NCBI RefSeq assembly: GCF_003259155.1
Contig: NZ_QGMQ01000008.1
Span: 62,001-126,000 of the forward strand
Source of the DNA: Marinimicrobium alkaliphilum
Lineage (GTDB): Bacteria; Pseudomonadota; Gammaproteobacteria; Pseudomonadales; Cellvibrionaceae
DNA length: 64,000 nucleotides
Direction: 5' to 3'
Made by a program: the position numbers and the translations under genes. This document shows positions 12,042-61,548 of the stretch, one piece after another. Position 1 is the first letter of the stretch, and the number at the start of each line of letters is the position of its first letter. The notes beneath the pieces are model-generated. The model searched no databases. It was not told where the DNA came from and worked only from the letters and a program-made list of their open reading frames with translations.

Positions 12042-12051
12042 CATTGGTGCC

Positions 12052-12080
12052 ATTGTGCCCCCTGTGGGCGATTCTGTAAA
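12052..12080 (-). promoter_or_regulatory. Possible promoter of nagB-nagA
   Basis: On the minus strand TTTACA (12080-12075) and CACAAT (12057-12052) are 17 bp apart, and the operator begins 9 bp further on. The -10 matches consensus at four of six positions, so this is a moderate candidate only. Confidence 0.4.
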
Positions 12081-12092
12081 GGCTTGGTGCCG

Positions 12093-13124: not shown

Positions 13125-13219
13125 AGCGGTTGAACGGGTTCCCGGCTGGTCAGTGGAAAACGGGCAGTATACACCAAGGCTGGATTCTGACGTTTTGAGC
13201 ACAAGCCGGGGCCGGGGAA

Positions 13220-13349
13220 CCCTTTCCGGGACCGTCTGCCGCTGGACGACCCACAGGGATGTGGGGAGTGTCCCGAAGCGCCGGGAGCGCGCAGGGACCG
13301 GCGGCAGTCGAGCCCCCAGGGATGGGTTTACGGCGTGTCCCGGAAGGGG
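13220..13349 (+). repeat. Long-armed structured repeat, copy A
   Basis: The arm CCCTTTCCGGGAC (13220-13232) pairs with GTCCCGGAAGGGG (13337-13349), with one G.T-type change; imperfect pairing may continue outward. Inside are the hairpin CCCACAGGGATGTGGG and the shared core CCAGGGATGGGTTTACGGCG just before the closing arm. About 130 bp are nearly identical to copy B at 22889-23048, 9.7 kb away. Confidence 0.8.
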
Positions 13350-13392
13350 ATCCCTGCCTTCAGCGGGCTACAGGCAAGGTGTTCAGCTGGGC

Positions 13393-13420
13393 TTGCATTT
13401 GCCAGAGGGTGCGCTAAACT
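13393..13420 (+). promoter_or_regulatory. Promoter of the GH20 chitobiase gene
   Basis: TTGCAT (13393-13398), a 16-bp spacer and TAAACT (13415-13420) precede the NagR palindrome by 5 bp. This is the same geometry as at nagK. Confidence 0.55.
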
Positions 13421-13425
13421 GTGTG

Positions 13426-13439
13426 AGACAACGTTGTCT
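13426..13439. promoter_or_regulatory. NagR operator, copy 3 (GH20 promoter)
   Basis: A perfect AGACAACGTTGTCT, ending 39 bp before the GH20 start codon and just downstream of the proposed -10. This places the secreted hexosaminidase under the same repressor as nagK-nagP and nagB-nagA. Confidence 0.85.
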
Positions 13440-13478
13440 TGCCGTTTTGCGGCCATTCAGTAAGAGGGAGTCAAAATA

Positions 13479-16354: not shown

Positions 16355-19300
16355 ATGCGACAAGTGTTCAATAAAAAACTGCTAAGCCTGGCCGTGTGTA
16401 GTGTAGTTGCCGGAGTCTCAAGTCCGGCTATCGCGCAGGGTGATCAGGATATGGTGCTGGAAGAGATTGTGGTCACCGGTATGCGCAACAGCCTGCGCAA
16501 TGCCCAGGACCTCAAGCGCGAAGCCAGTACCGTGGTCGATGCCATTACCGCATCCGATATCGGCGCGCTGCCGGATAAGAGTGTCACCGAAGCCTTGCAG
16601 CGGGTGCCCGGTGTCACCATCGAGCGCTTTGCCGCTTCCGATGACCCCAACCACTTTGCGGATGAAGGCACGGGGGTGCTGATCCGGGGTTTGGATCGCG
16701 TGCGCAGTGAAATCAATGGGCGCGATGCCTTCAGTGCCAACCCGTTTGGTGGATTGAATTTTGAAGACATTCCGCCGGAGCTGTTGGGCGCTGTTGAGGT
16801 CTACAAAAACCAGACTGCAGACATGATTGCCGGCGGCGTTGCCGGCACGGTCAATCTGGTGACCCGCAAGCCGTTTGATAGCGATGGACGGGTAGCGGGG
16901 TTCACGGTCAAAGGGAACTATGGTGACCGTCGCGAAGAATTCAGCCCGTCAGCATCGGCCCTGTTCAGCGATATCTGGGAAACCGATATCGGTGATTTTG
17001 GCTTCCAGCTTTCGGCTTCCCACTCTGAACTGCGCACGACGGGTGACGGTATTGGCGTCGCCAACTTCTATTCGCGCGGTGATTCCTTTATCAACGTGCC
17101 GCCGGCCTGGGATGCCAGCGGCGAGGTGCTCGGCTCGCCCGCGCCCGACTCGCCCGTTGATGGCCCGGCCGTAGCCGGGCAGGAACCGGGCACGGTGGTT
17201 CATATTCCTGGCCAGTTCTCGCTGCGGCGCGCGGAAAACGACCGCGAACGTACGGGTTTTGCCGGTGCGCTTCAATGGCGCAATGTCGACCGCACCATTC
17301 AGACGACTCTGGAGTATGTCCGTTCAGATGCCTCGCTGACCTATCGGGAAAATGTTCTTGGGGCACAGGCTCAGGGGTTTGACGCTGCGATTCGCGTTCA
17401 ACCCAATGTCGGTACAGCGGTTGAACCCACCTACGACGCCAATGGCTTCTTTACCAGTGGCATCATCACGGTTAACAACGATCACCCTTTCCAGGCGTCA
17501 ACCCGCTTTAACGAGACGGAAACCTCGGTTGAAGATCTGTCGTTCAATGTTCAGTATAACCCGACGGATCGTGTGACCCTGGAACTGGATGTTCAACGGG
17601 TCGAATCCACCGAGACTGTGACCAACAACGGTATCAACCCGCGCTACTGGGGGGGCCTTGGCAGCGCCTATCTGGATCTCACCGGTAGCTACCCGTACAT
17701 TGAGTTCTTGAACCATGACCGCATGATCGATCCCCAGGAAGAACCGCACTGGTCGGAGTTTGAAGCGCCTGATTTTTTACTGGCGAGCGGTCTTGATCAA
17801 CATGTGGACTCCAAGGGAACGCTTGATGCCTATAAGTTTGACCTGGAATATGATCTGGATCATGACTGGGCACGCAGCGTGCGCGTCGGTGTCTATCACT
17901 CCGACCGTGAGTTGGTGGTGCGCGATACCGAGTATGCCAACTGGGGCACCTTCAATATTCCTTGGGAGTTGGCTTCCGCAGTCAATGGTGACTACCGCTT
18001 GATCACCGAGGAGTTTGAGTCACAAACCTGGAATAATTTCTTCAAGAACGGTCATCTGGGAGGGGGCAACGAATTCCTGTTTATCAAGATGGAAAGTGCT
18101 GAAGATTTCCTCGGCTTTGCACGCCGCAGCTGTGAAGAAGGTTTTAACACCGGGGCCTTTGGTGGCGGTGCGAACAATGAGAACGGCCAGAACAACCCGA
18201 ATTGCTTCCTCGCTTCTCAGGACATGGGTGGCCGGATTGCCGAGGGCTCGCCCTTTGCCCCCCACGACGTGACCTCGACCAATGAGACCCGCAACGAAGC
18301 TTACGTGCGCTTTGACTTTGCTGATGATTCCCTCGACACGCCTTACCGCGGTAATGTGGGCTTGCGCTACGTCAACTATCAGCTCGAGTCCACCGGGTTT
18401 GTTGTTCTGCCGGATTTGGGGGGTGAAGGGTCCGACTTTATAGCGGATGAGCGTCCCAATCTTGCCGCCTTCGCGGACGGTCAGGGGCAGCGGACCACGG
18501 TCAGTGGCACCGACTACACCGCGGTTTTGCCGAGCTTCAACCTGGCAGTTGATCTGACCGATGATGTGGTTCTGCGCTTTGGTGCCTCGCAAGGGCTTTA
18601 CTTCCCGACGCTGCAGAACACCCGCAACTCGCGTATCGTCAATCTCGGTTGGAACAACATCCGGGAAGAGGAAGACGGGCCGGTGGTCGGCATTGATAAT
18701 GTTCAGCTCAACGGGACCGCGCGTAACCCCTTCCTGGAACCGGAGAAGTCAACCAATCTGGATGTGAGTACCGAATGGTACTTCGCCGATACCGGCTCCG
18801 TGTCGCTGGCGCTGTTCTACAAGAACATCGACAATCTGTTCCGCGAGCGGCCGTTCCGTGCCGAGGTTGAAAACCCGCGTACCAATGTCTCCGAGGAGGT
18901 CTCCTTCACCGGGCCAGCCAACGACGGTTCCGGCTCGATCCAGGGCTTCGAGTTTTCCTACACCCAATTCTTCGATGCATTGCCGGGTGCCTGGAGCGGT
19001 TTGGGTATGCAATTCAACTACACCTTTATTGATCAGAATGATCTCGAAGACCCGGAAAGCAGTGCCCTGCTGGGTGAGGTTCGCTTTGACTCGGCGGGTA
19101 ACCCCGTGAGCGATGACCGCAACAGCTTCCGTGCGTTCACCGATCTGCCGCTGCCGGGTTATTCGGATCAGAACTTCAACCTGGTGGGCATGTATGAGTA
19201 CAACGCGATCTCCGCGCGTCTCGCCTACACCTGGCGCTCGGACTACCTGGTCACCCGTCGTGACTCCAACGAGTTTGCACCCATCTATGCCAAATCCAGC

Positions 19301-19486
19301 GGCTATCTCGATGGTTCTATTTACTACGATATCACCAGCAATGTTCAGGTGGGTTTTGAGGCGAGCAATATCCTTAATACCATTACGGAAACTCAGGCGC
19401 AGTACAATCAGGAAGGTGTGCGTACCGATGCATTGAACTTCCGTACCGACCGGCGCTTGGCGTTGAGCCTGCGCGCGAGCTTCTAA
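16355..19486 (+). CDS. TonB-dependent receptor, probable chitooligosaccharide importer
   Basis: 1043 residues. A signal peptide ending SSPAIAQ is followed by a TonB-box-like EEIVVTG, a plug domain (SDIGALPDKSVTEALQRVPGVTIER ... LIRGLDRVRSEINGRDAF) and a 22-strand-type barrel ending in the aromatic terminus LSLRASF. It belongs to the large sugar-uptake TonB receptors of marine Proteobacteria. Position directly after the NagR-controlled chitobiase suggests outer-membrane uptake of chitin oligomers; the substrate is not readable from sequence. A strong intrinsic terminator follows the stop. It has its own long AT-rich leader rather than an obvious NagR site. Confidence 0.85.
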   Translation: MRQVFNKKLLSLAVCSVVAGVSSPAIAQGDQDMVLEEIVVTGMRNSLRNAQDLKREASTVVDAITASDIGALPDKSVTEALQRVPGVTIERFAASDDPNHFADEGTGVLIRGLDRVRSEINGRDAFSANPFGGLNFEDIPPELLGAVEVYKNQTADMIAGGVAGTVNLVTRKPFDSDGRVAGFTVKGNYGDRREEFSPSASALFSDIWETDIGDFGFQLSASHSELRTTGDGIGVANFYSRGDSFINVPPAWDASGEVLGSPAPDSPVDGPAVAGQEPGTVVHIPGQFSLRRAENDRERTGFAGALQWRNVDRTIQTTLEYVRSDASLTYRENVLGAQAQGFDAAIRVQPNVGTAVEPTYDANGFFTSGIITVNNDHPFQASTRFNETETSVEDLSFNVQYNPTDRVTLELDVQRVESTETVTNNGINPRYWGGLGSAYLDLTGSYPYIEFLNHDRMIDPQEEPHWSEFEAPDFLLASGLDQHVDSKGTLDAYKFDLEYDLDHDWARSVRVGVYHSDRELVVRDTEYANWGTFNIPWELASAVNGDYRLITEEFESQTWNNFFKNGHLGGGNEFLFIKMESAEDFLGFARRSCEEGFNTGAFGGGANNENGQNNPNCFLASQDMGGRIAEGSPFAPHDVTSTNETRNEAYVRFDFADDSLDTPYRGNVGLRYVNYQLESTGFVVLPDLGGEGSDFIADERPNLAAFADGQGQRTTVSGTDYTAVLPSFNLAVDLTDDVVLRFGASQGLYFPTLQNTRNSRIVNLGWNNIREEEDGPVVGIDNVQLNGTARNPFLEPEKSTNLDVSTEWYFADTGSVSLALFYKNIDNLFRERPFRAEVENPRTNVSEEVSFTGPANDGSGSIQGFEFSYTQFFDALPGAWSGLGMQFNYTFIDQNDLEDPESSALLGEVRFDSAGNPVSDDRNSFRAFTDLPLPGYSDQNFNLVGMYEYNAISARLAYTWRSDYLVTRRDSNEFAPIYAKSSGYLDGSIYYDITSNVQVGFEASNILNTITETQAQYNQEGVRTDALNFRTDRRLALSLRASF

Positions 19487-19513: not shown

Positions 19514-19548
19514 GGGGCGTGCCGGTTAACCGGCACGCCCCTTTTTTT
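19514..19548 (+). terminator. Strong intrinsic terminator after the TonB receptor gene
   Basis: GGGGCGTGCCGG (19514-19525) pairs perfectly with CCGGCACGCCCC (19530-19541) around TTAA, followed by seven T residues. The T-tract overlaps the stop codon of the convergent lactonase gene. Confidence 0.93.
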
Positions 19549-20401
19549 ACTCAACGGTAAAGGTTTCGATGGCGCCGCGCTGTTGCAGGGTGACATAGAC
19601 TCGCGTGGATTCATTTTCCTTAAGGGCCAGATTGGTGGGGTGCTGTCCCTGAAGCGGGAAGCGATTGATGACCTCGCCCTCCGGTGACAGGACGGTGATT
19701 CGACCGGCGCCGTAGCGGGCGATGTAGAGATTGCCTGTGCGATCGGTTTTCATGCCGTCCAGGCCGTAGTCGTCGAACTGATGGAACAACTGTTTATTGC
19801 TTATATCACCCTCGGGGCTGACATCGTAAACCCACACTTTCCGCTGTACGCTTTCGTTGACGTAGAGCCGGGTTTCGTCGGGGCTCAGCTCAATGCCGTT
19901 GGTGGTACCCATGCCGCACTCCAACAGTACGATTTCACCCTCGGGGCTGATGCGCCACAGTTGACCGGAGTCGGTTGACCAATCAGGATCGCTGGCATAA
20001 ATCATTCCTGAGCGGGACACGGCAATGTCGTTGGGCTGGTGCATGGCGGGTTGGTGATACGTGTGGCGAATGGCCCGGGACTCAAGATCAATCACGTGGA
20101 CATTATGGCCGGTGTAGTCGGCGACCAGCATGTCGCCTTCGGCATTGAAGCGAATGGCGTTACCAATACTGCCCTCGGGCAGGCGCATGAAGATGTCGGC
20201 TTGCCCTTGGGCGGAGACAACTCCGATTGTCCCCTGGGTTTTCAGGTTGGGGACATACAGGCGCCCATCGGGTCCGAACGCTGGACCCTCAATGCCGTCG
20301 GTAAAACGCCCGGCGTCGATGTAGTCCTGCGTGGGTGGATGGGCATGGCCGGTGTGTATCGCCGCGAGCACACCGAGTGCTAACAGGTGTTTGGGTTTCA
20401 T
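19547..20401 (-). CDS. Exported SMP-30/gluconolactonase-like lactonase
   Basis: 284 residues with a signal peptide (MKPKHLLALGVLAAIHTGHA), so periplasmic. It is a six-bladed SMP-30/LRE propeller. All four divalent-metal ligands of the family appear: Glu38 (GIEGPAFGPDG), Asn124 (HQPNDIAV), Asn168 (TTNGIELSPD) and Asp215 (YGLDGMKTD). Family members hydrolyse sugar lactones to aldonates. The start is 2 bp from the GH20 stop, with GAGGA overlapping it, so the two are translated as a unit. In this cluster it may open the 1,5-lactone that C1-oxidising chitin enzymes produce; that role is inferred from neighbours. Confidence 0.78.
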   Translation of the reverse strand: MKPKHLLALGVLAAIHTGHAHPPTQDYIDAGRFTDGIEGPAFGPDGRLYVPNLKTQGTIGVVSAQGQADIFMRLPEGSIGNAIRFNAEGDMLVADYTGHNVHVIDLESRAIRHTYHQPAMHQPNDIAVSRSGMIYASDPDWSTDSGQLWRISPEGEIVLLECGMGTTNGIELSPDETRLYVNESVQRKVWVYDVSPEGDISNKQLFHQFDDYGLDGMKTDRTGNLYIARYGAGRITVLSPEGEVINRFPLQGQHPTNLALKENESTRVYVTLQQRGAIETFTVE

Positions 20402-20403
20402 AG

Positions 20404-22857
20404 TCAATCCTCAAGGGTGGGGATATCGTCCAGGAGACGTTCAATCGGGTAGGCCGCGGGAATCACGATTTCCGCCTCTATGTTTTGGGCCGCGCGCAGC
20501 TGTCGGCGGGCGGCCTGAATGGATTCGCGATCAAGTGCCAAACCTTCTTCCAGCACGTCCAGTAGCGTCAGCCCCCAACTCGTGGTTGTTACCACACGCT
20601 GGGCTTGTGGTTTGAGTGCGCCGGGGTCACCTTCCTCGGTGACTTGTTCAATCAGCGTGCGGGCGTTGTCCAGCCAGGCCTGAAGGGTTGCACGGGCGGC
20701 GTTGCGCTGCACCGGCTCACGCCAGCGTGTCAGTTGCCGGGCCAGGGTCTTGCCGGGGTGGCTTTCCACCGGCAAGGTATCCACCAGGCGATCCAGAGGG
20801 TCGCGCCGGGAGTAGGTTTCGTAAGCGGACTTCTCGTGATGGCGATGGTAATAGTGCGCAGGCTCCAGGGCGTCACTCAGTAGCCGCGCGCGTTCCCGCT
20901 GGCTGGGTGGTAATAATTGCGCGCGCAGGGCTTGGTTCTGCTGCTTGTGCTGCAGCCCAAGGGACTGCTCGGCCCAGGGTGACAAAGCCATCAGCCGCTC
21001 ATACATTGCCTCTGGATCGGTAAGCGACTCGCTTGACCACAGTCGCTCAGCGACGGCAAAGGTGCGCGGCCACAGGCGCAGATCAATATGCCGCTCGTCC
21101 ACGATTTCCGACCAAAGCGCGGCCTCGCCACCCAGTACAAAGGGCAACTGCTGCGCGCGAATAGACGGTGTGGGGATTGGTTCGGGAACGGCCGTTCCCG
21201 GGAGTGCACTGCCCGCGATAAGTTTGCCACTTGCCTGGTAGGGCGCGTTGCCAAAGACCATGTCACCGCCCAGACTTTTTCCGTCGCGCTCGATGCGCCC
21301 GCGCACCGGCCCAGCCCAGGTATCCACGTCGAAATAGAGGATGCCTCCGGCCCGCTCGAGATTCTGCAGGTCCTCACGCGAGCGGCCGGCAAAGTCGATG
21401 ACGCCGCGCAAACTACCCTTGTCGTTTTTGATCAGCGTAAAGCTGCCAGTGATGGGGGCGCCGCGTTTGCGCGGCAGCTTGAACGACCAACTCTCCCAGT
21501 ACTCGTCGGCGCCGGGCTGTGCGTCAACCTCGGGTGCTCGGGGAAAGATGGGATTGCGGTAGTGGTAGTCGGTGTACTGGGGCATGTCCATGTAAAAACC
21601 GGTGGACAGAATGGCGGGGTGGCCCTGGTTGGCGATTTCACCCATGGAGTCGGGGCCGCGCCAGGATTGCACCGCCGCGCCTTCGGGCAGATCCGGATGC
21701 AGGATCTCGTCCCAGCCGATCATGCGGCGATTGTATTGCGCGAGTATCTCCGCCAGCCGCCGATTGAAGTAAGCGTGCAGATCGTCGGCAGTGTCGAAGC
21801 CCTCGCGCGCCATAAAGGCGACGATCCTGTCGTTGGCCAGCCAGTCACGCGGGTCCACTTCGTCGCCACCGATGTGTACATATTCAAAGGGGAACAGCGC
21901 CGTCAATTCCTTGAAAATTTTGTCGGCAAAAACGTACACGTCCGGGTTGACCGGATCGAGCAGTGGCGTGTGCACACCCCAGCGATCTTCCATGGTGTAG
22001 GGGCCGGGCGCGGCCATCAGCTCGGGGTAGGCAACACCGATGGCACTGCTGTGGCCGGGCATGTCGATCTCGGGTACCACCTGAATACCTCGCGCCAGGG
22101 CGTAGTCGACAATGTCCCGAACCTCTTCGCGCGTGTAGTAGAAACCGTCGGACGCTTTTTCATGCAGCCTGGGGTAGTGGATCGACTCCAGGCGCCAGCC
22201 CTGATCATCGGTCAGGTGCCAGTGGAAAATATTGAGTTTGGCGGCGGCCATGGCATCGATCTGACGCTTGACGGTGTCCACCGAAAAGAAGTGCCTCACC
22301 GAGTCGAGCATCAGCCCGCGCCAGCGAAAACGGGGCCAATCCTCAAGGGTCAGTTGCGGCAGAGTGATGTCGGCCAACGGCGTCTCGGCCGGGTGGTGAC
22401 CCAGCAGCTGTAACAGTGTTTCCAGACCGTGATTGACACCCTGATAGGTCGCTGCCCGCAACACAATACGTTCGCCCTCAATCACCAGGTGGTAGGCCTC
22501 CCGGTCTTGAGTCAACAGGTCGAGCGTCAGCGTGTCCGCCGCCAACAGCGGATCCTGCTCGCGCTCCAGCTCGATGACCAGCGCGGGGTACGCCGACGAC
22601 GCCGGCTCCAGCGTCAGGTAATGGTGCGTCTGCCGGGCGAAGCGTTCCCGAAAACGTTCTAGCGCCGCGTCCACCTGGGCGTTCTCGGGGGCGCTGACCG
22701 CCAACCGGGGCTCCGCCCCAAAACGCCACTCGCCATCGCCGCGCTCAATTGTCTGGGGATAAGGCATCAGCGTCAGTCTGCTGTCGCTGTCGGCGTGGGC
22801 GGATACGGTTATCAATATCAAAGCAGCGAGTGCCACTTGAAAGAATGGCTTTATCAT
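20404..22857 (-). CDS. Exported GH20 beta-N-acetylhexosaminidase with an insertion in the catalytic domain
   Basis: 817 residues with a signal peptide (MIKPFFQVALAALILITVSAHA). A GH20b domain spans about residues 30-165. The GH20 barrel carries FHWHLTDDQGWRLE, EIDMPGHSSAIG and the catalytic Asp-Glu in YVHIGGDEVDPRDW (about residue 330). Between GWDEILHPDL and the last barrel strands lies an extra 85-residue beta-rich segment (about 470-555). A helical C-terminal domain follows. The frame stays open to 23088, but those 77 codons run through structured repeat B; the ATG at 22857, after TAGGGA, begins the signal peptide. It differs from the chitobiase at 13479 and may act on modified or aldonate-ended oligomers (inference). 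Confidence 0.9.
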   Translation of the reverse strand: MIKPFFQVALAALILITVSAHADSDSRLTLMPYPQTIERGDGEWRFGAEPRLAVSAPENAQVDAALERFRERFARQTHHYLTLEPASSAYPALVIELEREQDPLLAADTLTLDLLTQDREAYHLVIEGERIVLRAATYQGVNHGLETLLQLLGHHPAETPLADITLPQLTLEDWPRFRWRGLMLDSVRHFFSVDTVKRQIDAMAAAKLNIFHWHLTDDQGWRLESIHYPRLHEKASDGFYYTREEVRDIVDYALARGIQVVPEIDMPGHSSAIGVAYPELMAAPGPYTMEDRWGVHTPLLDPVNPDVYVFADKIFKELTALFPFEYVHIGGDEVDPRDWLANDRIVAFMAREGFDTADDLHAYFNRRLAEILAQYNRRMIGWDEILHPDLPEGAAVQSWRGPDSMGEIANQGHPAILSTGFYMDMPQYTDYHYRNPIFPRAPEVDAQPGADEYWESWSFKLPRKRGAPITGSFTLIKNDKGSLRGVIDFAGRSREDLQNLERAGGILYFDVDTWAGPVRGRIERDGKSLGGDMVFGNAPYQASGKLIAGSALPGTAVPEPIPTPSIRAQQLPFVLGGEAALWSEIVDERHIDLRLWPRTFAVAERLWSSESLTDPEAMYERLMALSPWAEQSLGLQHKQQNQALRAQLLPPSQRERARLLSDALEPAHYYHRHHEKSAYETYSRRDPLDRLVDTLPVESHPGKTLARQLTRWREPVQRNAARATLQAWLDNARTLIEQVTEEGDPGALKPQAQRVVTTTSWGLTLLDVLEEGLALDRESIQAARRQLRAAQNIEAEIVIPAAYPIERLLDDIPTLED

Positions 22858-22888
22858 TAGATTCCCTACAAGTTCCAGTGTGGCACAA

Positions 22889-23048
22889 GCCGGAGTCAGG
22901 TATCCCTTTCCGGGACCGTCTGCCGCTGGACGACCCACAGGGATGTGGGAAGTGTCCCGAAGCGCCGGGAGCGCGCAGGGACCGGCGGCAGTCGAGCCCC
23001 CAGGGATGGGTTTACGGCGTGTCCCGGAAAGGGATACCTGACTCCGGC
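22889..23048 (+). repeat. Long-armed structured repeat, copy B
   Basis: Perfect 28-bp inverted arms (22889-22916 and 23021-23048) enclose CTGCCGCTGG, which can pair with CCGGCGGCAG, the hairpin CCCACA-GGGA-TGTGGG, and the shared core CCAGGGATGGGTTTACGGCG (23000-23019) directly before the closing arm. The interior is almost identical to copy A. It lies between the deaminase stop and the GH20 start. Confidence 0.9.
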
Positions 23049-23078
23049 TCTCTGATACAGACACCAAAGCACGAGCCT

Positions 23079-24260
23079 TTAGAAACACGTCGGCACTTCT
23101 TCAATCACGTTGTAATCGTCGTCGATCATCACGATCTCCCGCCACTTATCAAATGTGAGACAGGGGTGGGAGGTGGCGAGGGCGATGATGTCGCCCACGC
23201 GCAGGTCGTGATCGGTGCGGGTGTGCATGATGCTGTGCTGATCCATGATCTTGACCAGTTGCCAGTCCGCCGGCGCCGTGCGCGCCTGGCAGTCGGGGCC
23301 GGGGCGGGCGTGCAGGACCGGTTGGGGCAGGCCGGCATCGAAGGCGGCGTCACGCTTGCCCAGGGTCAGGATGGCCATGCCGGGCTCGGGCAGGGATTGC
23401 ACGTAGGCCCAGACCTCCAGGCTGGATTGCAGGTCCCCCGGTGCCGGGCAGTGACCCCCCAGGCGGGCGCGCACCTGGGCCTGGGCCTGGGCGTAGATGC
23501 CCTGATCGTGAATCAGGTAGCAGCCCGGGCGGAGGACCGGCAGCAGGCGCGGGTCCCCGGTGCTGCCAAAAATGTCGGCGACCAGGTCGTACCAGGCAGA
23601 GCCCGCGCCGGTGAGGATGACCTGCTCCGTGTCGAACCGGTCCTCCGCCAGTAGGCGCAGGGTGAGATCGCGCACGCGGGTCAGGTGCTGCCGCACGGCG
23701 ATCTCTGGCTGATCGCCGCGCACCATACCTTCATAGGTCTCCACGCCGACAAGCTGCAGTGCGGGCTGTTGCGCGACGGCCTCGGCCAGGGTCAGCACCT
23801 CATCGGCGGTGCGACAGCCACACCGGCCACCGACAACCCCCACTTCGATCAGGACAGGCAGCACCTGCTGGCGGGCAGCGAAAAACCCGCCCAGTTCGCG
23901 CACGTTGTCGACGTTGTCCACCAGGCAGTAGAGCAGGGTCTCGGACTGGGTCAGCAGCTCGCTGACCGCCGCCATATTGGCTCGTCCGACCAGTTGATTG
24001 GCCATCAGAATGCGCCCAATTCCGGCGTCCGCGGCGGCCTGTGCCTGAGATACGGTGGCGACGGACAGACCCCAGGCACCGGCGGCCTTCTGCCACTGAA
24101 AAAACCTGGGGGTCATGGTGGTCTTGCCGTGGGGCGCCAGGACTACGCCCTTGTGGTCGGCGAAGGTCTGCATCCAGTGCAGATTGTTTTTCAGGCGTGA
24201 CTGATACACCACCGCAGCGGGAAGAGGGATGGCCTCGTGGAGCAGGTTGCGGTTGTGCAT
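23079..24260 (-). CDS. PLP-dependent D-amino-acid / D-glucosaminate deaminase (alanine-racemase-fold, D-serine-dehydratase-like)
   Basis: 393 residues. An N-terminal alanine-racemase-type barrel carries the PLP lysine Lys46 in LAPHGKTTMTPRFF. The C-terminal D-serine-dehydratase-like domain has the metal motif His365-Xaa-Cys367 (ATSHPCLTFDKW). Members deaminate D-amino acids through an enamine. It shares a divergent promoter with rpiR-deacylase-ridA-symporter-chitinase and is followed by GH20 and a lactonase. The likely substrate is therefore D-glucosaminate, giving KDG plus ammonia, as I recall for OngC of the marine oxidative chitin pathway. D-serine or D-threonine is the alternative. The ATG at 24260 has AAGGGA upstream; earlier in-frame ATGs lie in AT-rich promoter sequence. 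Confidence 0.75.
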   Translation of the reverse strand: MHNRNLLHEAIPLPAAVVYQSRLKNNLHWMQTFADHKGVVLAPHGKTTMTPRFFQWQKAAGAWGLSVATVSQAQAAADAGIGRILMANQLVGRANMAAVSELLTQSETLLYCLVDNVDNVRELGGFFAARQQVLPVLIEVGVVGGRCGCRTADEVLTLAEAVAQQPALQLVGVETYEGMVRGDQPEIAVRQHLTRVRDLTLRLLAEDRFDTEQVILTGAGSAWYDLVADIFGSTGDPRLLPVLRPGCYLIHDQGIYAQAQAQVRARLGGHCPAPGDLQSSLEVWAYVQSLPEPGMAILTLGKRDAAFDAGLPQPVLHARPGPDCQARTAPADWQLVKIMDQHSIMHTRTDHDLRVGDIIALATSHPCLTFDKWREIVMIDDDYNVIEEVPTCF

Positions 24261-24443
24261 AAGGAGTCCCTTTTCGGATGGCGGTCTGTTACTAAGTACC
24301 ATATTGTATTTAAAGTTATTGAAAATAACAAACATGGTGTCTATACTGCAAAAGGTTCAGTAGTATTCTCGCTTTGAGAGCCTGTCCGCTGGTGCGGGTG
24401 AAGGCGAGACTTATTCACTGTTCACTCTAAAAGGAACGACGCC
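24261..24443. promoter_or_regulatory. Divergent control region of the proposed aldonate operons
   Basis: This 183-bp gap between the deaminase (minus) and rpiR (plus) is the most AT-rich stretch nearby. It contains the perfect 6-3-6 inverted repeat GTTATTGAAAATAAC (24315-24329), the size and symmetry of RpiR-family operators, and is the natural target of the adjacent RpiR protein. AAGGA at 24431 serves the GTG start of rpiR. No NagR palindrome is present. Confidence 0.45.
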
Positions 24444-25310
24444 GTGAGTCATGAACCGGATATCGTATCGCGCATCAACAATTTTTACGGCCAGCTGCGC
24501 GATGCCGAACAAAAAATTGCCCGCCTGATTCTCGATGATATCAGTTTTGCGGCTCAGGCCAGCATCAGCGAGCTGGCCCGCAAAGCGAAAGTGAGTGAGG
24601 CGACCATCACCCGTTTCGCCAAGGCGGTGGAGTGCAAAAACGTTCGCCACCTGAAGCTGTGTCTGGCCCAGGCCGAAGCGGTGGGCGATCGCTTTTACAC
24701 CGATGTCAAAGCCGAGCCGCGGGGTATTTACAGCGTCTATGAAGACATCAAGGCCATTCTTGATCACAACGCCGGATTGCTCACCGAAGCCGTGGTAGAC
24801 CCGGCGGTAGAGACGCTGGCCAAAGCGCGCCAGATTCTGATTTTTGGTGTCGGCGGTGGCTCTACGGTAATGGCCCAGGAGTGTCAGCATCGCTTCTTCC
24901 GCTTGGGCTTTCCTGCGACCGCCTACTCCGACCCGATGCTGATGCGCATGGCCGCCTCGACCATTGACAGTAGCGATGTGGTGATGTGTTTGTCGCTCGG
25001 GGGCTACAGCCCCGATGTCGAGGAAGCCGCAGCCATTGCCAAAGAATACGGCGCTGAATTGGTGGGGGTGACGGTTGCAGACTCGCCTCTGGGAGCGTTG
25101 CTCGATCACCTGGTACCGATCGAGACCATGGAAACAGATTACATTTTCAAACCCAGCGCGTCCCGTTACGCCATGCTCGCGGCCATCGATATTCTGGCCA
25201 CCGAGCTGGCGGCAAAGCACAAGCGCAAAAGCCGTGAAGCCTTGCGGCGCATGAAGCACACGCTGGATAACCACAAGCACGGCAGGGATCGATTGCCCCT
25301 GGGTGACTGA
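24444..25310 (+). CDS. RpiR-family regulator (HTH_6 plus SIS domain)
   Basis: 288 residues. An N-terminal HTH_6 helix-turn-helix (AASISELARKAKVSEATITRFAKAVECKNVRHLKL) is followed by a SIS domain (about residues 125-265; FGVGGGSTVMAQECQHRF and VMCLSLGGYSPDVEEAAAIAKE) that normally senses a phosphosugar. The start is GTG at 24444, 8 bp after AAGGA. It is the first gene of rpiR-deacylase-ridA-symporter-GH18 and divergent from the deaminase, so it probably controls both operons. The ligand could be KDPG or another KDG-pathway phosphosugar, by analogy with RpiR relatives such as HexR; this is inference. Confidence 0.88.
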   Translation: MSHEPDIVSRINNFYGQLRDAEQKIARLILDDISFAAQASISELARKAKVSEATITRFAKAVECKNVRHLKLCLAQAEAVGDRFYTDVKAEPRGIYSVYEDIKAILDHNAGLLTEAVVDPAVETLAKARQILIFGVGGGSTVMAQECQHRFFRLGFPATAYSDPMLMRMAASTIDSSDVVMCLSLGGYSPDVEEAAAIAKEYGAELVGVTVADSPLGALLDHLVPIETMETDYIFKPSASRYAMLAAIDILATELAAKHKRKSREALRRMKHTLDNHKHGRDRLPLGD

Positions 25311-25333
25311 GATGAAGGGTTTATTGGTACGGT

Positions 25334-26773
25334 ATGAGTTATGACACGGTTATCCGCAATGCCCAGGTCGTCGATGGCCGCGGTGTCGATATTTTCACCG
25401 CTGATGTGGCGCTTAAAGATGGGCGAATTGCCCGTGTTGCTGAGAACATTGAAGCACCTGCGTCGGAGATCGTCGAAGCGGGAGGACGTTACCTCGCTCC
25501 GGGCTTTATTGATGTGCATACCCATGACGACCTGGAGGTCATCAACAATCCCGACATGCTCGCCAAAACCAGTCAGGGCGTTACCAGTGTTATCGTCGGT
25601 AACTGTGGTATCAGTGCCAGTCCCGTACGCCTGACACGCGAGCCGCCCGACCCGCTTAACCTGCTGGGTGATCAAGGCGACTTTGTCTATTCACGCTTTT
25701 CAGATTACGTTCGAGCGGTAACGCTGGCGAAGCCCTCGGTGAATGTGGCGGCGCTGGTCGGCCACACCGCGCTTCGCAACAACCACATGAAAGATCTCAC
25801 GCGCACGGCCAGCGTCACTGAGCTGAGTGCCATGAGCGCCCAGTTACACGATGCTCTTGCCGAGGGGGCCCTGGGGATGAGTTCCGGCCTGGCCTATGCC
25901 AATGCCCAAGGGGCCGATATCAACGAGGTGTTGGCTCTGGTAAAAGAGCTGAAAGTGTTTGGCGCCATTTATACCACCCATCTGCGCACCGAGTTCGATC
26001 AGATTATCGAAGCGCTGGGGGAGGCGCTGGACACGGCGGCGAGTGCCCGGGTGCCGCTGGTGGTGTCGCACCTCAAGTGTGCGGGAAAAGGGAATTGGGG
26101 TCGGAGTACGGAAGTACTTGCGCATCTGGAAGCCGCAGCGCACACCCAAAAGCTGGCCTGTGATTGCTACCCCTATTCGGCGAGTTCGAGCACATTGGAT
26201 TTGAAGCAGGTCACCGGTGACAGCGATATTTTTATCACCTGGTCGCGCCCTCATCCCGACCAGGGTGGGCGTCCGCTGGCGGACATTGCCCGGGACTGGA
26301 ATGTCAGCCTGCTGGCGGCGGCCGAGGCTCTGCAGCCGGCCGGCGCCGTTTACCATTGCATGGACCCCGAGGACGTCAGGACCATACTCAAGCATCCGCT
26401 CACCATGGTCGGCTCCGATGGCCTGCCCAACGATCCTCATCCACACCCCCGGCTTTGGGGCGCCTTTCCCCGTGTTCTGGCACATTACTGTCGGGACGAG
26501 GGGTTGTTCGATTTACCTACCGCGGTGCACAAGATGTCCGGCCGTTCAGCCGCAGAGTTCAATTTGACAGACCGGGGTCTGATTGCCGAAGGCTACTACG
26601 CCGACCTGGTGCTGTTCGATTGGGACAAACTGGAATCACCCGCCAACTATTTACAGCCCGTTCAGCGTGCCCGGGGCATCGAATCGGTGTGGGTGAACGG
26701 CGTTCTGAGTTATCAGCCTGACCGGGAAACCCCCGGGCGAGCGGGGCAGTTTTTGTACCGGAAAAATCAATAA
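25334..26773 (+). CDS. N-acyl-D-amino-acid deacylase family; candidate N-acetylglucosaminate deacetylase
   Basis: 479 residues, a cytoplasmic amidohydrolase of the D-aminoacylase family. Metal and catalytic landmarks are His62 and His64 (FIDVHTHDD), Cys91 (VGNCGIS), a His near 217 (THLRTEFD), a His near 246 (VSHLKCAGKG) and the catalytic Asp near 361 (MVGSDGLPND). This matches the Cys/His/His zinc site of known D-aminoacylases. It hydrolyses N-acyl groups from D-configured 2-amino acids; N-acetyl-D-glucosaminate is chemically such a substrate. With the deaminase, RidA, symporter and chitinolytic neighbours it is the best candidate for the deacetylation step (OngB-like, from memory of the pathway). 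Ordinary N-acyl-D-amino acids remain possible. Confidence 0.8.
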   Translation: MSYDTVIRNAQVVDGRGVDIFTADVALKDGRIARVAENIEAPASEIVEAGGRYLAPGFIDVHTHDDLEVINNPDMLAKTSQGVTSVIVGNCGISASPVRLTREPPDPLNLLGDQGDFVYSRFSDYVRAVTLAKPSVNVAALVGHTALRNNHMKDLTRTASVTELSAMSAQLHDALAEGALGMSSGLAYANAQGADINEVLALVKELKVFGAIYTTHLRTEFDQIIEALGEALDTAASARVPLVVSHLKCAGKGNWGRSTEVLAHLEAAAHTQKLACDCYPYSASSSTLDLKQVTGDSDIFITWSRPHPDQGGRPLADIARDWNVSLLAAAEALQPAGAVYHCMDPEDVRTILKHPLTMVGSDGLPNDPHPHPRLWGAFPRVLAHYCRDEGLFDLPTAVHKMSGRSAAEFNLTDRGLIAEGYYADLVLFDWDKLESPANYLQPVQRARGIESVWVNGVLSYQPDRETPGRAGQFLYRKNQ

Positions 26774-26800
26774 TACGAAACCTGAATGGAGAAAATAACA

Positions 26801-27187
26801 ATGACCATCACACGTTACGGTGCCGGCGGTGGTGTCGGCACGGGCGGACAACACCTGCCTTTTTCTCGCGCCACGCAAGCCGACGGCTGGCTCTATGTTT
26901 CCGGGCAAACGCCCATGCGCGATGGTGAGGTCGTGGAGGGCAGTGTCATCGAGCAGTCCCAGCTTGCGATCGACAACTGCTTTGCCATTATGCGCGAGGC
27001 TGGTTACACCGCTGAACATGTGGTGCATGTCACGGTGATACTCACTGATGCCCGCTACTTTTCATCGTTCAATAAAGTGTTCAAAGCCAACTTTGGCGAT
27101 CACCCACCCGCGCGCATCTGCTCGGTCTGCGACCTGGTAGTGGACTGCAAGGTGGAAGTGGGGTTGGTCTGCTACAAGCAGAGCTGA
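26801..27187 (+). CDS. ridA: RidA-family enamine/imine deaminase
   Basis: 128 residues (MTITRYGAGGGVGTGGQHL...). Conserved RidA features are YVSGQTP-like LYVSGQTPMRDG, the substrate Arg in PPARICSVCDL and Glu in KVEVGLVCYK. The family speeds hydrolysis of reactive enamine/imine intermediates released by PLP-dependent deaminases, exactly what the neighbouring deaminase would make. An ATG at 26786 is in frame, but GGAG lies 9 bp before the ATG at 26801, which is chosen. The symporter gene starts 5 bp after its stop, so they are co-transcribed. Confidence 0.85.
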   Translation: MTITRYGAGGGVGTGGQHLPFSRATQADGWLYVSGQTPMRDGEVVEGSVIEQSQLAIDNCFAIMREAGYTAEHVVHVTVILTDARYFSSFNKVFKANFGDHPPARICSVCDLVVDCKVEVGLVCYKQS

Positions 27188-27192
27188 GCGCT

Positions 27193-28647
27193 ATGACGAC
27201 GAATCTCTTCCTGAGCGCATTCGGCACCTACATTTTCTTTCTGATTCTTCTGGGCTGGTTTGTCTCCAGAAAGCAGCGCGGTGGTCAGGACTTTCTTCTG
27301 GCCGGGCGCAGCCTGCCGGTGTTTCTCATCATCGGGACGACCCTCGGTACCCTGGTGGGAACCGGCTCGTCCATGGGGGCGGTGGGCTTTGGTTACGGGT
27401 TTGGTTGGGCGGGTGTGCTCTATGGCATTGGCGGTGCCATCGGCATTCTTCTGTTGGCGTTGCTGTTTGCGCCGGTACGTAGATTGCGCTTTATGACCAT
27501 GAGTGAGGAGTTGTCCTACTATGTGGGCGCTCACCCGCTGGTGAAAAATATTGTCGCTGTTCTGATTCTGCTCGCCTGCATTGGCTGGCTGGGAGCGCAT
27601 ATTCTCGGGGGCGGTCTTTATCTGGCCTGGATCGCTGGCATTGACCTGGCGTGGGCGAAGACGCTGGTGGCTCTTGGTTTTGCGATCTATGTGATTGTTG
27701 GGGGTTACCGGGCAGTGGTCTGGACCGATACCTTGCAGGCGATTGTGCTGTTCTTCGGCTTTATCCTTATGGCCGGTTTCGCCCTGCATCAGGTTGGTGG
27801 TTGGTCGGCACTTGTCGCCGCCCAGCCTGTCGTCAACCGGTCGTTTCTGGGAATGCAGGCGCTGGGCTGGTTGCCCAGTCTGTCGCTGGTAGCGGTGATA
27901 GCGGTGGGGGTGCTGGCGACGCCGTCGTTCCGGCAACGGATCTATTCCGGGCGCAGTGTGCGCTCGGTGCGGCAATCTTTTGTGGCCACAGGGATACTCT
28001 ATCTGTTCTTTTCGGTGGTGCCGGCGATCATCGGTATGGCGGCATTTGCACTCAACCCCGCGCTGGAGAACCGCAACTTTGCCTTTCCCTTTCTCGCCGT
28101 GGAAGTGCTGCCCCTGTGGATTGGTCTGGTGGTGTTGATCGCCGGTTTGTCGGCGACCATGTCCAGCGCCAGCTCGGATGCTATCGCCGGCGTGTCAATT
28201 CTGATCCGCGATGTCTTTTCATTGCTCGCCGGTCGGGTGCCCAGCGCCGACAAAGTCATACTCTTTTCCCGGATCGGACTGGCCCTGGTCATTGGTGTCG
28301 CCTGGTTGATGGCGATGTTGTCCGACGACCTGATCAGCTATATCACCCGGATGATCGCCACCCTGATGGCGGGCATGTTTACCTGCGGTTTACTGGGGCG
28401 CTTTTGGCCGCGCTACAACTGGCAGGGCGCTATCGCTTCCTTGCTGGTTGGGGTGTCGGCATCGCTGGCTATGATTGTTTCCGGATTGGACGGTGTGTGG
28501 GGCAACCCGATCATTCCGGCTGTGGCGTCCGCGCTGCTCGCCGGCGTTGTGATCAGCCTGATGACGCCGGCCCAGGCCTTGAGCAACGAACAAGCGCTGG
28601 CGCGGATCAGTGCCGAGCGCGACACAATGGAACGGGGAGAGTACTAA
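27193..28647 (+). CDS. Sodium:solute symporter (SSS family)
   Basis: 484 residues with about 13 hydrophobic helices and the SSS layout (FLLAGRSLPVFLIIGTTLGTLVGTGSSMGA split over helices 1-2, then GGYRAVVWTDTLQAIVLF in the middle). It is a Na+-coupled importer in the inner membrane. It sits between ridA and the GH18 gene, whose ATG directly abuts its TAA. The context suggests it brings the aldonate sugar released by periplasmic GH20 and lactonase into the cytoplasm for the deacylase (OngA-like role, inferred). Proline, pantothenate or sialate transport cannot be excluded from sequence alone. Confidence 0.82.
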   Translation: MTTNLFLSAFGTYIFFLILLGWFVSRKQRGGQDFLLAGRSLPVFLIIGTTLGTLVGTGSSMGAVGFGYGFGWAGVLYGIGGAIGILLLALLFAPVRRLRFMTMSEELSYYVGAHPLVKNIVAVLILLACIGWLGAHILGGGLYLAWIAGIDLAWAKTLVALGFAIYVIVGGYRAVVWTDTLQAIVLFFGFILMAGFALHQVGGWSALVAAQPVVNRSFLGMQALGWLPSLSLVAVIAVGVLATPSFRQRIYSGRSVRSVRQSFVATGILYLFFSVVPAIIGMAAFALNPALENRNFAFPFLAVEVLPLWIGLVVLIAGLSATMSSASSDAIAGVSILIRDVFSLLAGRVPSADKVILFSRIGLALVIGVAWLMAMLSDDLISYITRMIATLMAGMFTCGLLGRFWPRYNWQGAIASLLVGVSASLAMIVSGLDGVWGNPIIPAVASALLAGVVISLMTPAQALSNEQALARISAERDTMERGEY

Positions 28648-30249
28648 ATGTTGAAGCGAATTTTTTGGGTACTGATGACTGTAACCCTGGCGGCCTGTTC
28701 TGGACAGGAAGACGCGCTCGTGGCCATCGAGGAAGCGCCGGCCGACCATGAGCGGGTTATTGTGGGCTACATTTTCAATCCGGATGCGCAGGTGGACCCG
28801 GATACCATTGCGGCGGAAAAGCTCACCCATATCAACTACGCCTTTTCCAATATCGAAGATGGCGAACTGGTGGAAGGCTTTGCCTACGATGAGCAGAACT
28901 ACCGGCAGTTGCAGACCCTCAAGGCGCGCAACCCGGACCTGAAAATTCTCACGTCGGTGGGCGGTTGGACCTGGTCCGGCGGCTTTTCCGATATGGCGCT
29001 GACCGGGGAGACGCGCCAGCGTTTTATCGACAGCGCGCTGGACTTTGTACGCCGCCACCAACTGGACGGCATCGACATCGATTGGGAGTACCCCGGTTTG
29101 CCCGGCGCGGGCAACGTGCACCGACCCGAGGACGGCGTCAACTTTACCCTGTTGCTGCGCAGCCTGCGCGAGCAGCTCGACGAGCTGGAACAGGAACTGG
29201 AGCGGCCGCTGTTGCTCACCATTGCCAGCGGTGGCTTTCCGCGCTTCCTGGAAAAGAGCGATATCGCCAACTGGCAACGCTACCTCGACTTTATCAACAT
29301 CATGGCCTACGACTACAACTTTCCCACCGACGGTAATCGCACCGGCCACAACGCGCCCCTGTATGCGCCCGAGGGCGATGTCATGTCTGCCGATCAGGCC
29401 GTGCGCGATCATCTGGCCGCCGGTGTGCCGCCGGAAAAGCTGGTGCTGGGCGTGCCCTTCTATGGTCGTCACTGGGTCGCGGTTGACCCGGACAGTGCCG
29501 GACTCGGCCAGGTCGGCCATACCGGCGACTTCCCCTACGGCGACACGGGTTACCGCAATCTGGCGGAAAACCTGATCGATCAACAGGGCTTTGAGCGGCA
29601 CTGGGACCCGGTCGGTCAGGTGCCCTGGCTCTGGCACGAACAGGAACGACTGTTTGTCAGCTACGACGACCCCGAGTCCATGGCCATCAAGGCCCAGTAT
29701 GTGCGCGATCAGGGTCTGCGGGGCATCATGTTCTGGCGCTACGAAACCGACCACAACAACGAGCTGCTGAAGGCGATTTACGCTCATCTGATCGCTGACG
29801 CGCCGGAAGCTCACGGGCAGATCAATACCGAAAGTCTTATCGGCACCTGGCAGCTATTGGAGGAAACGATACGTTTTGGCGACGAGGTTATCGTAACCTT
29901 TGACGCTGACAGCCGCGAGATGATCAAAATATTTAACGACAGTCACTTCGCCTTTGTCAGCAAAGGCGAAGACCGAGAACCCTTTGCAGGACTGTCGTTG
30001 ACCGATCAGGAGAAGGCGCGCGCATTTGACAATTTTGGCGCGGGTGGCGGTCGCTACACCTTTGCAGACGGGGTACTCACGGAAAAAATCGGGTTCATGT
30101 CCTATCCCAATTACGAAGGCGAGCAGATTGCGTTCAAGATATCCTTCGAAGGCGACAGAATGATTCAGGAAGGACATTATCCCCTCGTGCGCCTTGGGTT
30201 GGCAGAAACGGACGGCTATCTCCACTCGGTCTTCAAGCGCGTACAGTAA
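28648..30249 (+). CDS. GH18 chitinase lipoprotein with C-terminal lipocalin-like domain
   Basis: 533 residues. A lipoprotein signal ends LAAC (Cys about 17), followed by a GH18 barrel (about residues 32-385) with the strand motif SVGGWTWSGGFSD and the complete catalytic DxxDxDxE in DGIDIDWEYPG (about 139-149). Also present are INIMAYDYN and the C-terminal barrel Trp in GIMFWRYETD. From about residue 397 an added domain (LIGTWQLLEET ... FKRVQ, 135 residues) looks like a lipocalin-type beta barrel. It would cut chitin or its oligomers at the cell surface or periplasmic face. It is the last gene of the rpiR operon and is convergent with the kinase gene 51 bp away. Confidence 0.88.
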   Translation: MLKRIFWVLMTVTLAACSGQEDALVAIEEAPADHERVIVGYIFNPDAQVDPDTIAAEKLTHINYAFSNIEDGELVEGFAYDEQNYRQLQTLKARNPDLKILTSVGGWTWSGGFSDMALTGETRQRFIDSALDFVRRHQLDGIDIDWEYPGLPGAGNVHRPEDGVNFTLLLRSLREQLDELEQELERPLLLTIASGGFPRFLEKSDIANWQRYLDFINIMAYDYNFPTDGNRTGHNAPLYAPEGDVMSADQAVRDHLAAGVPPEKLVLGVPFYGRHWVAVDPDSAGLGQVGHTGDFPYGDTGYRNLAENLIDQQGFERHWDPVGQVPWLWHEQERLFVSYDDPESMAIKAQYVRDQGLRGIMFWRYETDHNNELLKAIYAHLIADAPEAHGQINTESLIGTWQLLEETIRFGDEVIVTFDADSREMIKIFNDSHFAFVSKGEDREPFAGLSLTDQEKARAFDNFGAGGGRYTFADGVLTEKIGFMSYPNYEGEQIAFKISFEGDRMIQEGHYPLVRLGLAETDGYLHSVFKRVQ

Positions 30250-60606: not shown

Positions 60607-61548
60607 TCAGGCGTTGTATTCGCCCTCGAAGGTCATCTTGTCGATCACGCCGCCGCGGTGACGGATGACGATACCGGCGCAGCGGGTGCCCTCTTTGGCG
60701 GCGTCCGCGGGCTCGGCCCCTTTGAGGCGCGCCGCCATGTAGCCGGCATTAAAGGTATCCCCGGCACCGGTGGTATCGATCACATTGTTGACCTTGGGTA
60801 CGGGGACCCGCTCTTCCTGGCCATTGCGGATGATGATGGATTCTTCGGCGCCGCGTTTGAGCACCAGCTCCTGCAGTGACAGGTCCGCATAGCGGCGCTT
60901 GGCGCCATCGATGGAGTCATCGCCCCAAAGCAGGCCCTCGTCGTCCAGCGTCAGCAGGGCGATATCGGTGTGCTGCAAGACTGACAGCATGGCTTTTTGC
61001 GCGGCTTCCTTGCTCGGCCACAAGCGCGGGCGGTAATTGCTGTCGAAGGCGACGGTGATACCCTCGCTGCGCAGCTCGGCCAGTAGGTAGCCCAGAGTGA
61101 TACGGGCGGTCTCGCTCATGATCGCGAGGGTGATACCGCTCAGGTAAACCGCATCGCACCCGGCCAGTTGCTTGGCCAGTTTGGCGGCGGCCGCATCGTC
61201 GTTAAACAGTTCCCGCGCGGGCGCTTCTTTGCGCCAGTAAAAGAATTCGCGCTCGCCATCCGGGGTGTTGCGGATGATGTACAGGCCCGGGGCTCGACCC
61301 GGTAGGCGCTCGATCATCCCGGTGCCGATGTTCTCGGCCTGGGCGCGAGCGAGAATCTGGTCACTGTATGGGTCGTCGCCCAGAATGGTGACGTAGTCCA
61401 CCTGGGTGCCCAGGCGTGCCATGTAGACCGAGGTGTTGAAGGTATCCCCGGCGTAGGACAGCGCCATGACTTCGCGCTTTTCTTCCTGGGCTGTGGGGTA
61501 GGGCGAAAGCTCAACCATGACTTCGCCGATCGCTGCAATTCTTGCCAT
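60607..61548 (-). CDS. kdgK: 2-dehydro-3-deoxygluconokinase
   Basis: 313 residues, a PfkB/ribokinase-family sugar kinase. The N-terminal IAAIGEVMVELSP and the C-terminal anion-hole motif DTTGAGDTFNAGYMAARL with the catalytic Asp are intact. YFYWRKEAPARELF-type and FDSNYRPRLWPS segments are diagnostic of KDG kinases. It phosphorylates KDG to KDPG, the shared end point of KduD, UxaA and, as proposed here, the glucosaminate deaminase. It is flanked by its own terminator and by the uxaB terminator 31 bp before its start, so it is expressed by read-through or from its own promoter. Confidence 0.95.
   Translation of the reverse strand: MARIAAIGEVMVELSPYPTAQEEKREVMALSYAGDTFNTSVYMARLGTQVDYVTILGDDPYSDQILARAQAENIGTGMIERLPGRAPGLYIIRNTPDGEREFFYWRKEAPARELFNDDAAAAKLAKQLAGCDAVYLSGITLAIMSETARITLGYLLAELRSEGITVAFDSNYRPRLWPSKEAAQKAMLSVLQHTDIALLTLDDEGLLWGDDSIDGAKRRYADLSLQELVLKRGAEESIIIRNGQEERVPVPKVNNVIDTTGAGDTFNAGYMAARLKGAEPADAAKEGTRCAGIVIRHRGGVIDKMTFEGEYNA

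Follow-up and report, generated by a model that had tools for sequence, protein, structure and literature searches.

In Pseudoalteromonas prydzensis ACAM 620, oxidised chitin fragments are catabolised through the ong genes, which are arranged as ongOT-1, ongCRBD and ongIT-kdgK-ongA (PMC9537276). C1 oxidation of chitin yields a 1,5-lactone that equilibrates with the corresponding aldonic acid (PMC12017989). The published pathway leads from the oxidised oligosaccharide to the aldonate, with no enzyme named for this lactone, and the main texts of PMC9537276 and PMC12017989 make no mention of a lactonase. Here we describe a locus of Marinimicrobium alkaliphilum in which a gene of the SMP-30/gluconolactonase family (SGL) points to the missing step. 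It lies in a stretch of 64,000 nucleotides (the window; bases 62001-126000 of its contig, in a genome of 3.79 Mb), where two divergent operons occupy positions 19547-30249. Judging from gene content and conserved residues, this is probably a cluster of the ong type that serves the use of C1-oxidised chitooligosaccharides and includes an additional step in which the lactone is opened.

An earlier sequence-only reading of the window had listed GH18, GH20, a lactonase, an SSS importer, a deacylase, a pyridoxal phosphate (PLP) deaminase, RidA and an RpiR regulator in two divergent operons, and had taken the ong pathway as their frame. All of these genes are indeed full-length open frames, according to the open reading frame list and Pfam, and their content, with the enzyme activities predicted from it, is that of ongCRBD, ongIT and ongA (PMC9537276). 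Common to the two systems are OngC, OngR (MurR/RpiR family), OngB, OngD (RidA), OngIT (a sodium/solute symporter, SSS), an OngA-like GH20 and a TonB-dependent receptor nearby. The arrangement differs: GH20 belongs to the OngC operon of the window rather than to an ongIT-kdgK-ongA unit, the regulator is transcribed away from OngC rather than within one ongCRBD operon, and the kdgK candidate lies 30 kb off in a hexuronate cluster. Compared with P. prydzensis, the window also has SGL, directly after GH20, and a GH18 lipoprotein gene within the operon.

How might these genes work together? We propose that the TonB receptor takes in oxidised oligomers, which the GH18 lipoprotein and the OngA-like GH20 would trim. 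SGL would hydrolyse the 1,5-lactone end (GlcNAc-lactone or GlcNAc-GlcNAc-lactone) to the open-chain aldonate, and OngIT would import N-acetylglucosaminate (GlcNAc1A). OngB would then deacetylate GlcNAc1A, OngC with RidA would deaminate the product to 2-dehydro-3-deoxygluconate (KDG) and KdgK would phosphorylate KDG, with OngR repressing the divergent operons. The compartments assumed here are those suggested by signal peptides recognised by eye. SGL would clear away a lactone similar to known inhibitors of GH20 enzymes and would give OngIT and OngB the open-chain form.

The deacylase and its predicted substrate

Does the deacylase act on GlcNAc1A or on amino acids? In a D-amino-acid salvage pathway, the deacylase and the PLP enzyme would process N-acyl-D-amino acids and the glycosidases would be unrelated neighbours. 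The OngB and OngC families do include D-aminoacylases and D-serine deaminases, the best solved relative of the window OngC is 3gwq, a 'D-serine deaminase' (387 bits), and D-Ser and D-Thr are additional substrates of the P. prydzensis deaminase OngC (PMC9537276). The pocket of the deacylase argues otherwise. The protein matches crystallised PpOngB (PDB 9kb1) with 562 bits and 54% identity, against 427 bits for the D-aminoacylase AfDam; its best solved relative is 9g5m, an 'amidohydrolase family protein' (599 bits). We compared 20 active-site positions, drawn from PMC12017989, by alignment in PpOngB numbering. First, the window enzyme is identical to PpOngB at 19 of them, the exception being Cys for Gly348, a replacement also present in 32 other rows whose pattern is otherwise the same. 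Second, PpOngB and AfDam differ in this alignment at six of the 20 positions (193, 256, 290, 292, 298 and 348), where the window enzyme has the PpOngB residue at five and the AfDam residue at none. Third, opposite PpOngB 193, 256, 298 and 348 the window has Ala, Ala, Gln and Cys, and the hydrophobic pocket of AfDam, given as Phe191, Met254, Leu298 and Met346 in PMC12017989, is absent; our alignment sets an AfDam Arg opposite Gln298, unlike the Leu named there. The active-site residue Glu226 is common to AfDam as well.

The Cys91/His/His metal site proposed from the sequence was borne out, since Cys91, His216 and His246, together with the catalytic Asp362, align with Cys97, His222, His252 and Asp368 of PpOngB. 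Compared with the PpOngB structures 9kb1 and 9kb3, the window enzyme has the same metal site and catalytic Asp, and retains Ser290-292, Gln298, Ala193 and Ala256, with Gly348 changed to Cys. Ser290-Ser292 and Gln298 are kept in 114 of the 115 OngB sequences retrieved (the window included, some genomes twice). In a tree of 30 rows, the window sequence groups with those of a genus labelled g21 (92/82), among the OngB rows; the outgroup consists of two long-branched rows (AfDam and one other), and the tree does not itself place the root.

Clustering with true N-acyl-D-amino-acid deacylases, which had been named in advance as the outcome that would refute an oxidised-chitin function, thus did not occur in bit scores, pocket residues or tree position. 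These comparisons support the prediction of an OngB-type deacylase with a GlcNAc1A pocket. PpOngB itself is without activity on N-acetyl-D-amino acids, was crystallised with the open-chain form and has a Km that is nearly unchanged over pH 6-8 (PMC12017989). Moreover, in all 20 loci of three genera (g14, g21 and g22) the cluster includes the GH20-SGL pair, and in 19 of them the SSS gene too, the remaining locus being cut by a contig end. We therefore reject salvage as the main function on the pocket residues and regard it as very improbable, in keeping with the lower rank that the sequence-only reading had given it.

OngB is a single-copy gene, a genome search having found no second one. Several observations concern OngB in other genomes. 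In a Bacteroidetes metagenome-assembled genome (L029, DEMS01000024.1), OngB has Glu for the specificity residue Gln298, and RidA and SSS genes adjoin it. In G024, whose assembly contains runs of N, a TGA interrupts the OngB frame. The OngB encoded at Pseudomonas loci (L013, L010, L017 and others) has the GlcNAc1A pocket and is mostly accompanied by an RpiR regulator; the stretch around OngB gave no match to OngC, RidA or SSS. Judging from these stretches, the steps after OngB must be encoded elsewhere or be different in Pseudomonas.

A lactonase-like protein beside the OngA-type GH20

The window SGL belongs to the SMP-30/gluconolactonase family by its SGL Pfam domain, its predicted beta-propeller and a Glu/Asn/Asn/Asp site. 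Residues E41, N127, N171 and D218 (numbered in the stop-to-stop frame, with Met at 4) are each conserved in 37 or more of the 38 rows (36 distinct), and are putative metal ligands by comparison with the metal-ligand positions of SMP-30. The predicted model is a confident propeller (predicted local distance difference test, pLDDT, 84.8), and its best Foldseek matches are the lactonase RPA3624 and DFPase, followed by xylonolactonase, the gluconolactonase XC5397 and SMP30/GNL. Nearly the whole model shares the propeller of RPA3624 (8djf), Caulobacter xylonolactonase (7plb), XC5397 (3dr2) and SMP30/GNL (4gnc); the window SGL differs from these enzymes in being only about 17-23% identical, in its predicted export and in its coupling or fusion to GH20. 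The fold as modelled leaves the substrate unchosen. An N-terminal signal peptide is recognisable by eye in the window SGL. Judged in the same way, the N-termini of the other separate (unfused) SGLs look like those of secreted proteins or lipoproteins, except for a truncated row from G024.

Three features of the gene's context bear on its role. First, SGL and GH20 are closely linked. In the window, the ATG of SGL starts 2 bases past the GH20 stop codon. We fetched the loci of every OngB-positive genome of g14 (n=8), g21 (n=3) and g22 (n=9), together with 13 of the 17 in genus g9 (G023, G030, G031 and G033 were left out). As in the window, SGL immediately follows GH20 in the same orientation in all 20 loci of the first three genera, 5.6-6.6 kb from OngB. 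In g9, SGL lies 4.7-13.5 kb from OngB in nine of the 13, not next to GH20; among the four left out, it is 13-14 kb from OngB in G023 and G030 and on other contigs in G031 and G033. In a tree, the 21 in-cluster SGLs group together (99/97), with the SGL of G040 (genus g12) next to them.

Second, GH20 and SGL form a single reading frame, with no internal stop, in three genomes of one genus (G060, G061 and G062). Pfam assigns GH20 and SGL to the frame in L145, and GH20, SGL and a GH19 chitinase to those in L146 (11873-15784, 1303 codons) and L147 (11470-15414, 1314 codons), each of the latter apparently a single exported three-domain chitin protein. A GH19 search of the M. alkaliphilum genome gave no match, the control query being silent too.

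Third, SGL and OngB occur together. Among 144 genomes of the family, we counted OngB if full-length at 500 bits or more (or split over two contigs, as in G031) and close SGL at 200 bits or more, the next score being 80. OngB was present in 39 genomes and close SGL in 40; 37 had both, two OngB only (G025 and G029), three SGL only (G032, G138 and G139) and 102 neither. In g22, the same nine of 48 genomes hold both genes, and the other 39 neither. Order-wide, SGL was found at E<=1e-50 in five of 293 sampled genomes, the only one outside the family being G221, which is without a full-length OngB. A search of viral contigs gave no SGL relative.

What would a lactonase contribute here? GlcNAc-1,5-lactone itself inhibits hexosaminidases. 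Sulfonylhydrazones derived from lactones inhibit the human GH20 enzyme HexB (PMC8834866). Because lactone and aldonate are in equilibrium and lactone derivatives inhibit a GH20 enzyme, we suggest that the role of SGL is to open the lactone next to GH20. On balance, we lean slightly towards a dedicated chito-aldonolactonase that would open the C1-oxidation 1,5-lactone and shield the OngA-type GH20 from this transition-state-like compound, in some relatives as a GH20-SGL or GH20-SGL-GH19 fusion. Alternatively, the ong pathway may be real and SGL a broad periplasmic aldonolactonase (for cellobionolactone or gluconolactone, for example) that is placed here by chance or by shared regulation. Broad specificity is common among SMP-30 enzymes, some SGL relatives lie outside clusters or in genomes that have no OngB, and the genome's own lytic polysaccharide monooxygenase (LPMO) resembles cellulose-active AA10 enzymes. 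We nevertheless find a broad enzyme rather unlikely in view of the in-frame fusion to an OngA-type GH20, twice with GH19, the adjacency in all 20 loci of three genera and the shared distribution of SGL and OngB in g22.

The GH20 partner is itself of the OngA type and distinct from chitobiase, with the GH20s of Vibrio ong loci as reference. Against the GH20 of four such loci, a protein of 816 residues, it shows about 34% identity (483-492 bits), and an insertion of about 88 residues interrupts its catalytic domain (about 88-91 in the window and Vibrio proteins). All 37 OngA-type rows have this insertion, at 84-101 residues, against 41 aligned residues there in the chitobiase-type GH20 encoded at 13479 in the window. 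The insertion might recognise the oxidised chitin end; the predicted GH20 structure (pLDDT 50) is too poor to read. The chitobiase-type protein, which adjoins NagK, NagP, NagA, NagB-II and LacI genes, was rejected as OngA, being 25-31% identical to OngA types and having no comparable insertion.

The ong pathway was already known, and the lactonase, named only in passing earlier, is the new part. Within the reach of our searches, an ong pathway of which a conserved, in some cases fused, lactonase is an integral part has not been described: among the best-ranked literature matches there was no proposal of a lactonase in chitin oxidation, in a search whose scope did not extend to supplements and subscription papers. 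If the proposed role is true, the fusion of lactonase to hexosaminidase would mean that, in some bacteria, ring opening is not simply left to occur by itself. It would also offer a simple assay, a gene by which oxidative chitin use could be recognised in the family and, for the conversion of chitin, an enzyme that is bifunctional or trifunctional by nature.

Counter-evidence and the source of oxidised chitin

Several observations weigh against a dedicated lactonase, and others, given in the next paragraph, against local chitin oxidation. Under alkaline conditions the lactone opens spontaneously, according to PMC12017989. Vibrio ong loci manage without SGL, and since the Pseudoalteromonas ong system also works without it (PMC9537276) and SGL was found within 10 kb of OngB in only two of 80 OngB loci, both from Gilvimarinus (G046 and G048, also in the family set), the SGL step is not essential in general. 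SGL without OngB occurs in G032, G138, G139 and G221, and OngB without SGL in G025 and G029. Among the fetched g9 genomes, SGL lies elsewhere in G017 and G022 and is missing from G025 and G029; in G040 it lies outside the cluster. The family-wide association of the two genes (Fisher 2e-28) ignores relatedness. The GH20-SGL fusions may represent a single event, because all three come from one genus and G061 and G062 have nearly identical SGLs. VIA-align, finally, does not separate DFPase (Z 34) from RPA3624 (Z 33.7) as structural matches to the SGL model.

Where would the oxidised chitin come from? The sequence-only statement that the window holds no LPMO is correct for the window itself, but a single LPMO_10 domain, the only one in the genome, lies on the same contig at 127659-128258 (window-equivalent 65659-66258), 1.66 kb past the end; the near end of the gene is about 0.7 kb past it (frame in L001). 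The protein has LPMO_10, GbpA_2 and CBM_2 domains. Among solved structures, those nearest to it are 9i1u, 'cbp33/10B' (271 bits), which from the structure name only may be CjLPMO10B, and 6rw7 (172 bits); the chitin-active 5fjq reaches 35 bits. 6rw7 is TtAA10A, described as highly specific for cellulose in PMC6767633, and PMC6771041 lists CjLPMO10B as cellulose-active and CjLPMO10A (5fjq) as chitin-active. In this respect the genome is unlike the P. prydzensis ong system. Moreover, the window GH18, the one GH18 found in a genome search, is not common to related clusters; its sole match among the fetched family loci is 32% identical (L178). The oxidised-chitin reading of the cluster stands for the ong gene set, and its link to an LPMO is weaker here.

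Because the sole AA10 is cellulose-like and the genome has one GH18, oxidised chitin is not necessarily produced locally. The organism may instead scavenge lactone or aldonate released by other organisms, or depend on an oxidase or dehydrogenase acting on the reducing ends of GlcNAc or chitooligosaccharides, which would be compatible with the extended ong-type cluster that we prefer. The closeness of the single AA10 to 9i1u and the cellulose-specific TtAA10A, its low score against CjLPMO10A and the confinement of GH18 to the cluster speak for such a life, and a pathway kept with one GH18 and a cellulose-type LPMO would fit it. However, the LPMO carries GbpA_2 and CBM2, and could therefore still act on chitin, and AA10 is present in 37 of the 39 OngB-positive genomes (LPMO_10 occurs in 53 of the 105 others in the family). 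We consider such a source possible, at somewhat less than even odds.

Regulation, remaining genes and neighbouring clusters

The gap between OngC and OngR contains a 29-mer in which a promoter-like pair, TTGAAA-17-TATACT, overlaps a near-palindrome. It was found through 9-mers common to the gap sequences; an exact-palindrome search of the OngC-OngR gap yielded nothing shared. The 29-mer matches the window once, and none of 100 shuffles. All 12 loci of g21 and g22 contain its 20-mer core, which was drawn from the same loci that were scanned, with at most two mismatches; the eight g14 loci have no such site. Only sites with 0-2 mismatches count, as at up to five mismatches there are 33 sites in 121 sequences, compared with 10 in one shuffled copy. 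We regard the element as a candidate promoter of ongR combined with a candidate operator for OngR, the repressor of ongOT-1 and ongCRBD in P. prydzensis (PMC9537276). The closest NCBIfam model to the window OngR is HexR, and because this match (169 bits) is below the cut-off (296), sensing of KDG-6-phosphate by OngR is only an idea. The features are collected in Table 1.

Table 1. Predicted features of the ong-type locus and related genes, in window positions
Feature	Positions	Strand	Basis
SMP-30/SGL lactonase-like protein, proposed chito-aldonolactonase ('OngL', a name coined here)	19547..20401	-	Pfam SGL, 137 bits
OngA-like GH20 beta-N-acetylhexosaminidase, signal peptide by eye	20404..22857	-	Pfam GH20 in two stretches
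OngC-like fold-type III PLP deaminase (alanine-racemase N domain and D-ser_dehydrat)	23079..24260 (about)	-	Pfam
Candidate ongR promoter/OngR operator, conserved 29-mer	24319..24347	+	Recurrence in related loci; inference
OngR, RpiR-family regulator (HTH_6 and SIS)	24444..25310	+	Pfam, NCBIfam
OngB, predicted GlcNAc1A (N-acetylglucosaminate) deacetylase, D-aminoacylase-like amidohydrolase	25334..26773	+	PDB match, pocket residues
OngD, RidA family	26786..27187	+	Pfam Ribonuc_L-PSP
OngIT, SSS sodium/solute symporter	27193..28647	+	Pfam SSF
GH18 chitinase-like lipoprotein, lipobox LAAC by eye, weak lipocalin-like C-terminus	28648..30249	+	Pfam
TonB-dependent receptor, candidate OngOT	16355..19486	+	Pfam
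Chitobiase-type GH20 (CHB_HEX) of the neighbouring hydrolytic GlcNAc genes	13479..16046	+	Pfam
KdgK candidate (2-dehydro-3-deoxygluconokinase) in the hexuronate cluster	60607..61548	-	NCBIfam KdgK, 325 bits against a cut-off of 400

OngC, OngR, OngB, RidA and GH20, mostly with SSS, recur as a cluster in relatives. OngC homologues are found in 24 of the 80 OngB loci and also in the family clusters, where RidA is up to 85% identical to that of the window. With the translation start that we chose, Met26 of the long frame, the PLP Lys of OngC (residue 70 of the longest frame) becomes Lys46, and the assignment of Lys46 and an HPC motif in the sequence-only reading holds. SSS genes with 62-74% identity are present in 22 of the 40 fetched family loci (six of the 40 being SGL-only loci), and relatives of the TonB-dependent receptor (45-67% identical) lie near some ong clusters. 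In g9, 11 of the 13 fetched OngB loci gave no match to the SSS gene. One g9 cluster (L173) has a GntP permease gene (13101-14456, 523 bits) between OngC and OngR, so that a transporter swap of GntP for SSS, read in this locus only, is possible. In the Pseudomonas locus L013, the gene before the regulator resembles this permease by eye.

No kdgK was found inside the cluster, or in the fetched stretches of g14, g21 and g22. The nearest candidate, beside the tagaturonate reductase gene, is 38-42% identical to a kinase in eight of the 80 OngB loci (from Vibrio, Photobacterium, Zobellella and Andreprevotia). The KDG kinase of the hexuronate cluster may serve the ong pathway, the two routes meeting at KDG. 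The KDPG aldolase family has two matches elsewhere in the genome.

Out-of-cluster SGL genes lie close to a shikimate-kinase-like gene in L166 (8266-9904, Pfam SKI) and L179 (5201-7029, with a similar N-terminus). The hexuronate cluster of the window (45531-63272) comprises genes for a KduI family protein, an SDR/KduD-like protein, altronate dehydratase, a TRAP-like transporter (by eye), the KdgK candidate and tagaturonate reductase. Directly upstream of the ong-type locus, at 6310-16046, are hydrolytic GlcNAc genes for NagK (over the cut-off), a NagP-like MFS protein, an HGSNAT/NagX-like protein, NagA, a NagB-II-like protein, LacI and the chitobiase-type GH20, so that hydrolytic and oxidative chitin gene sets are neighbours in the window.

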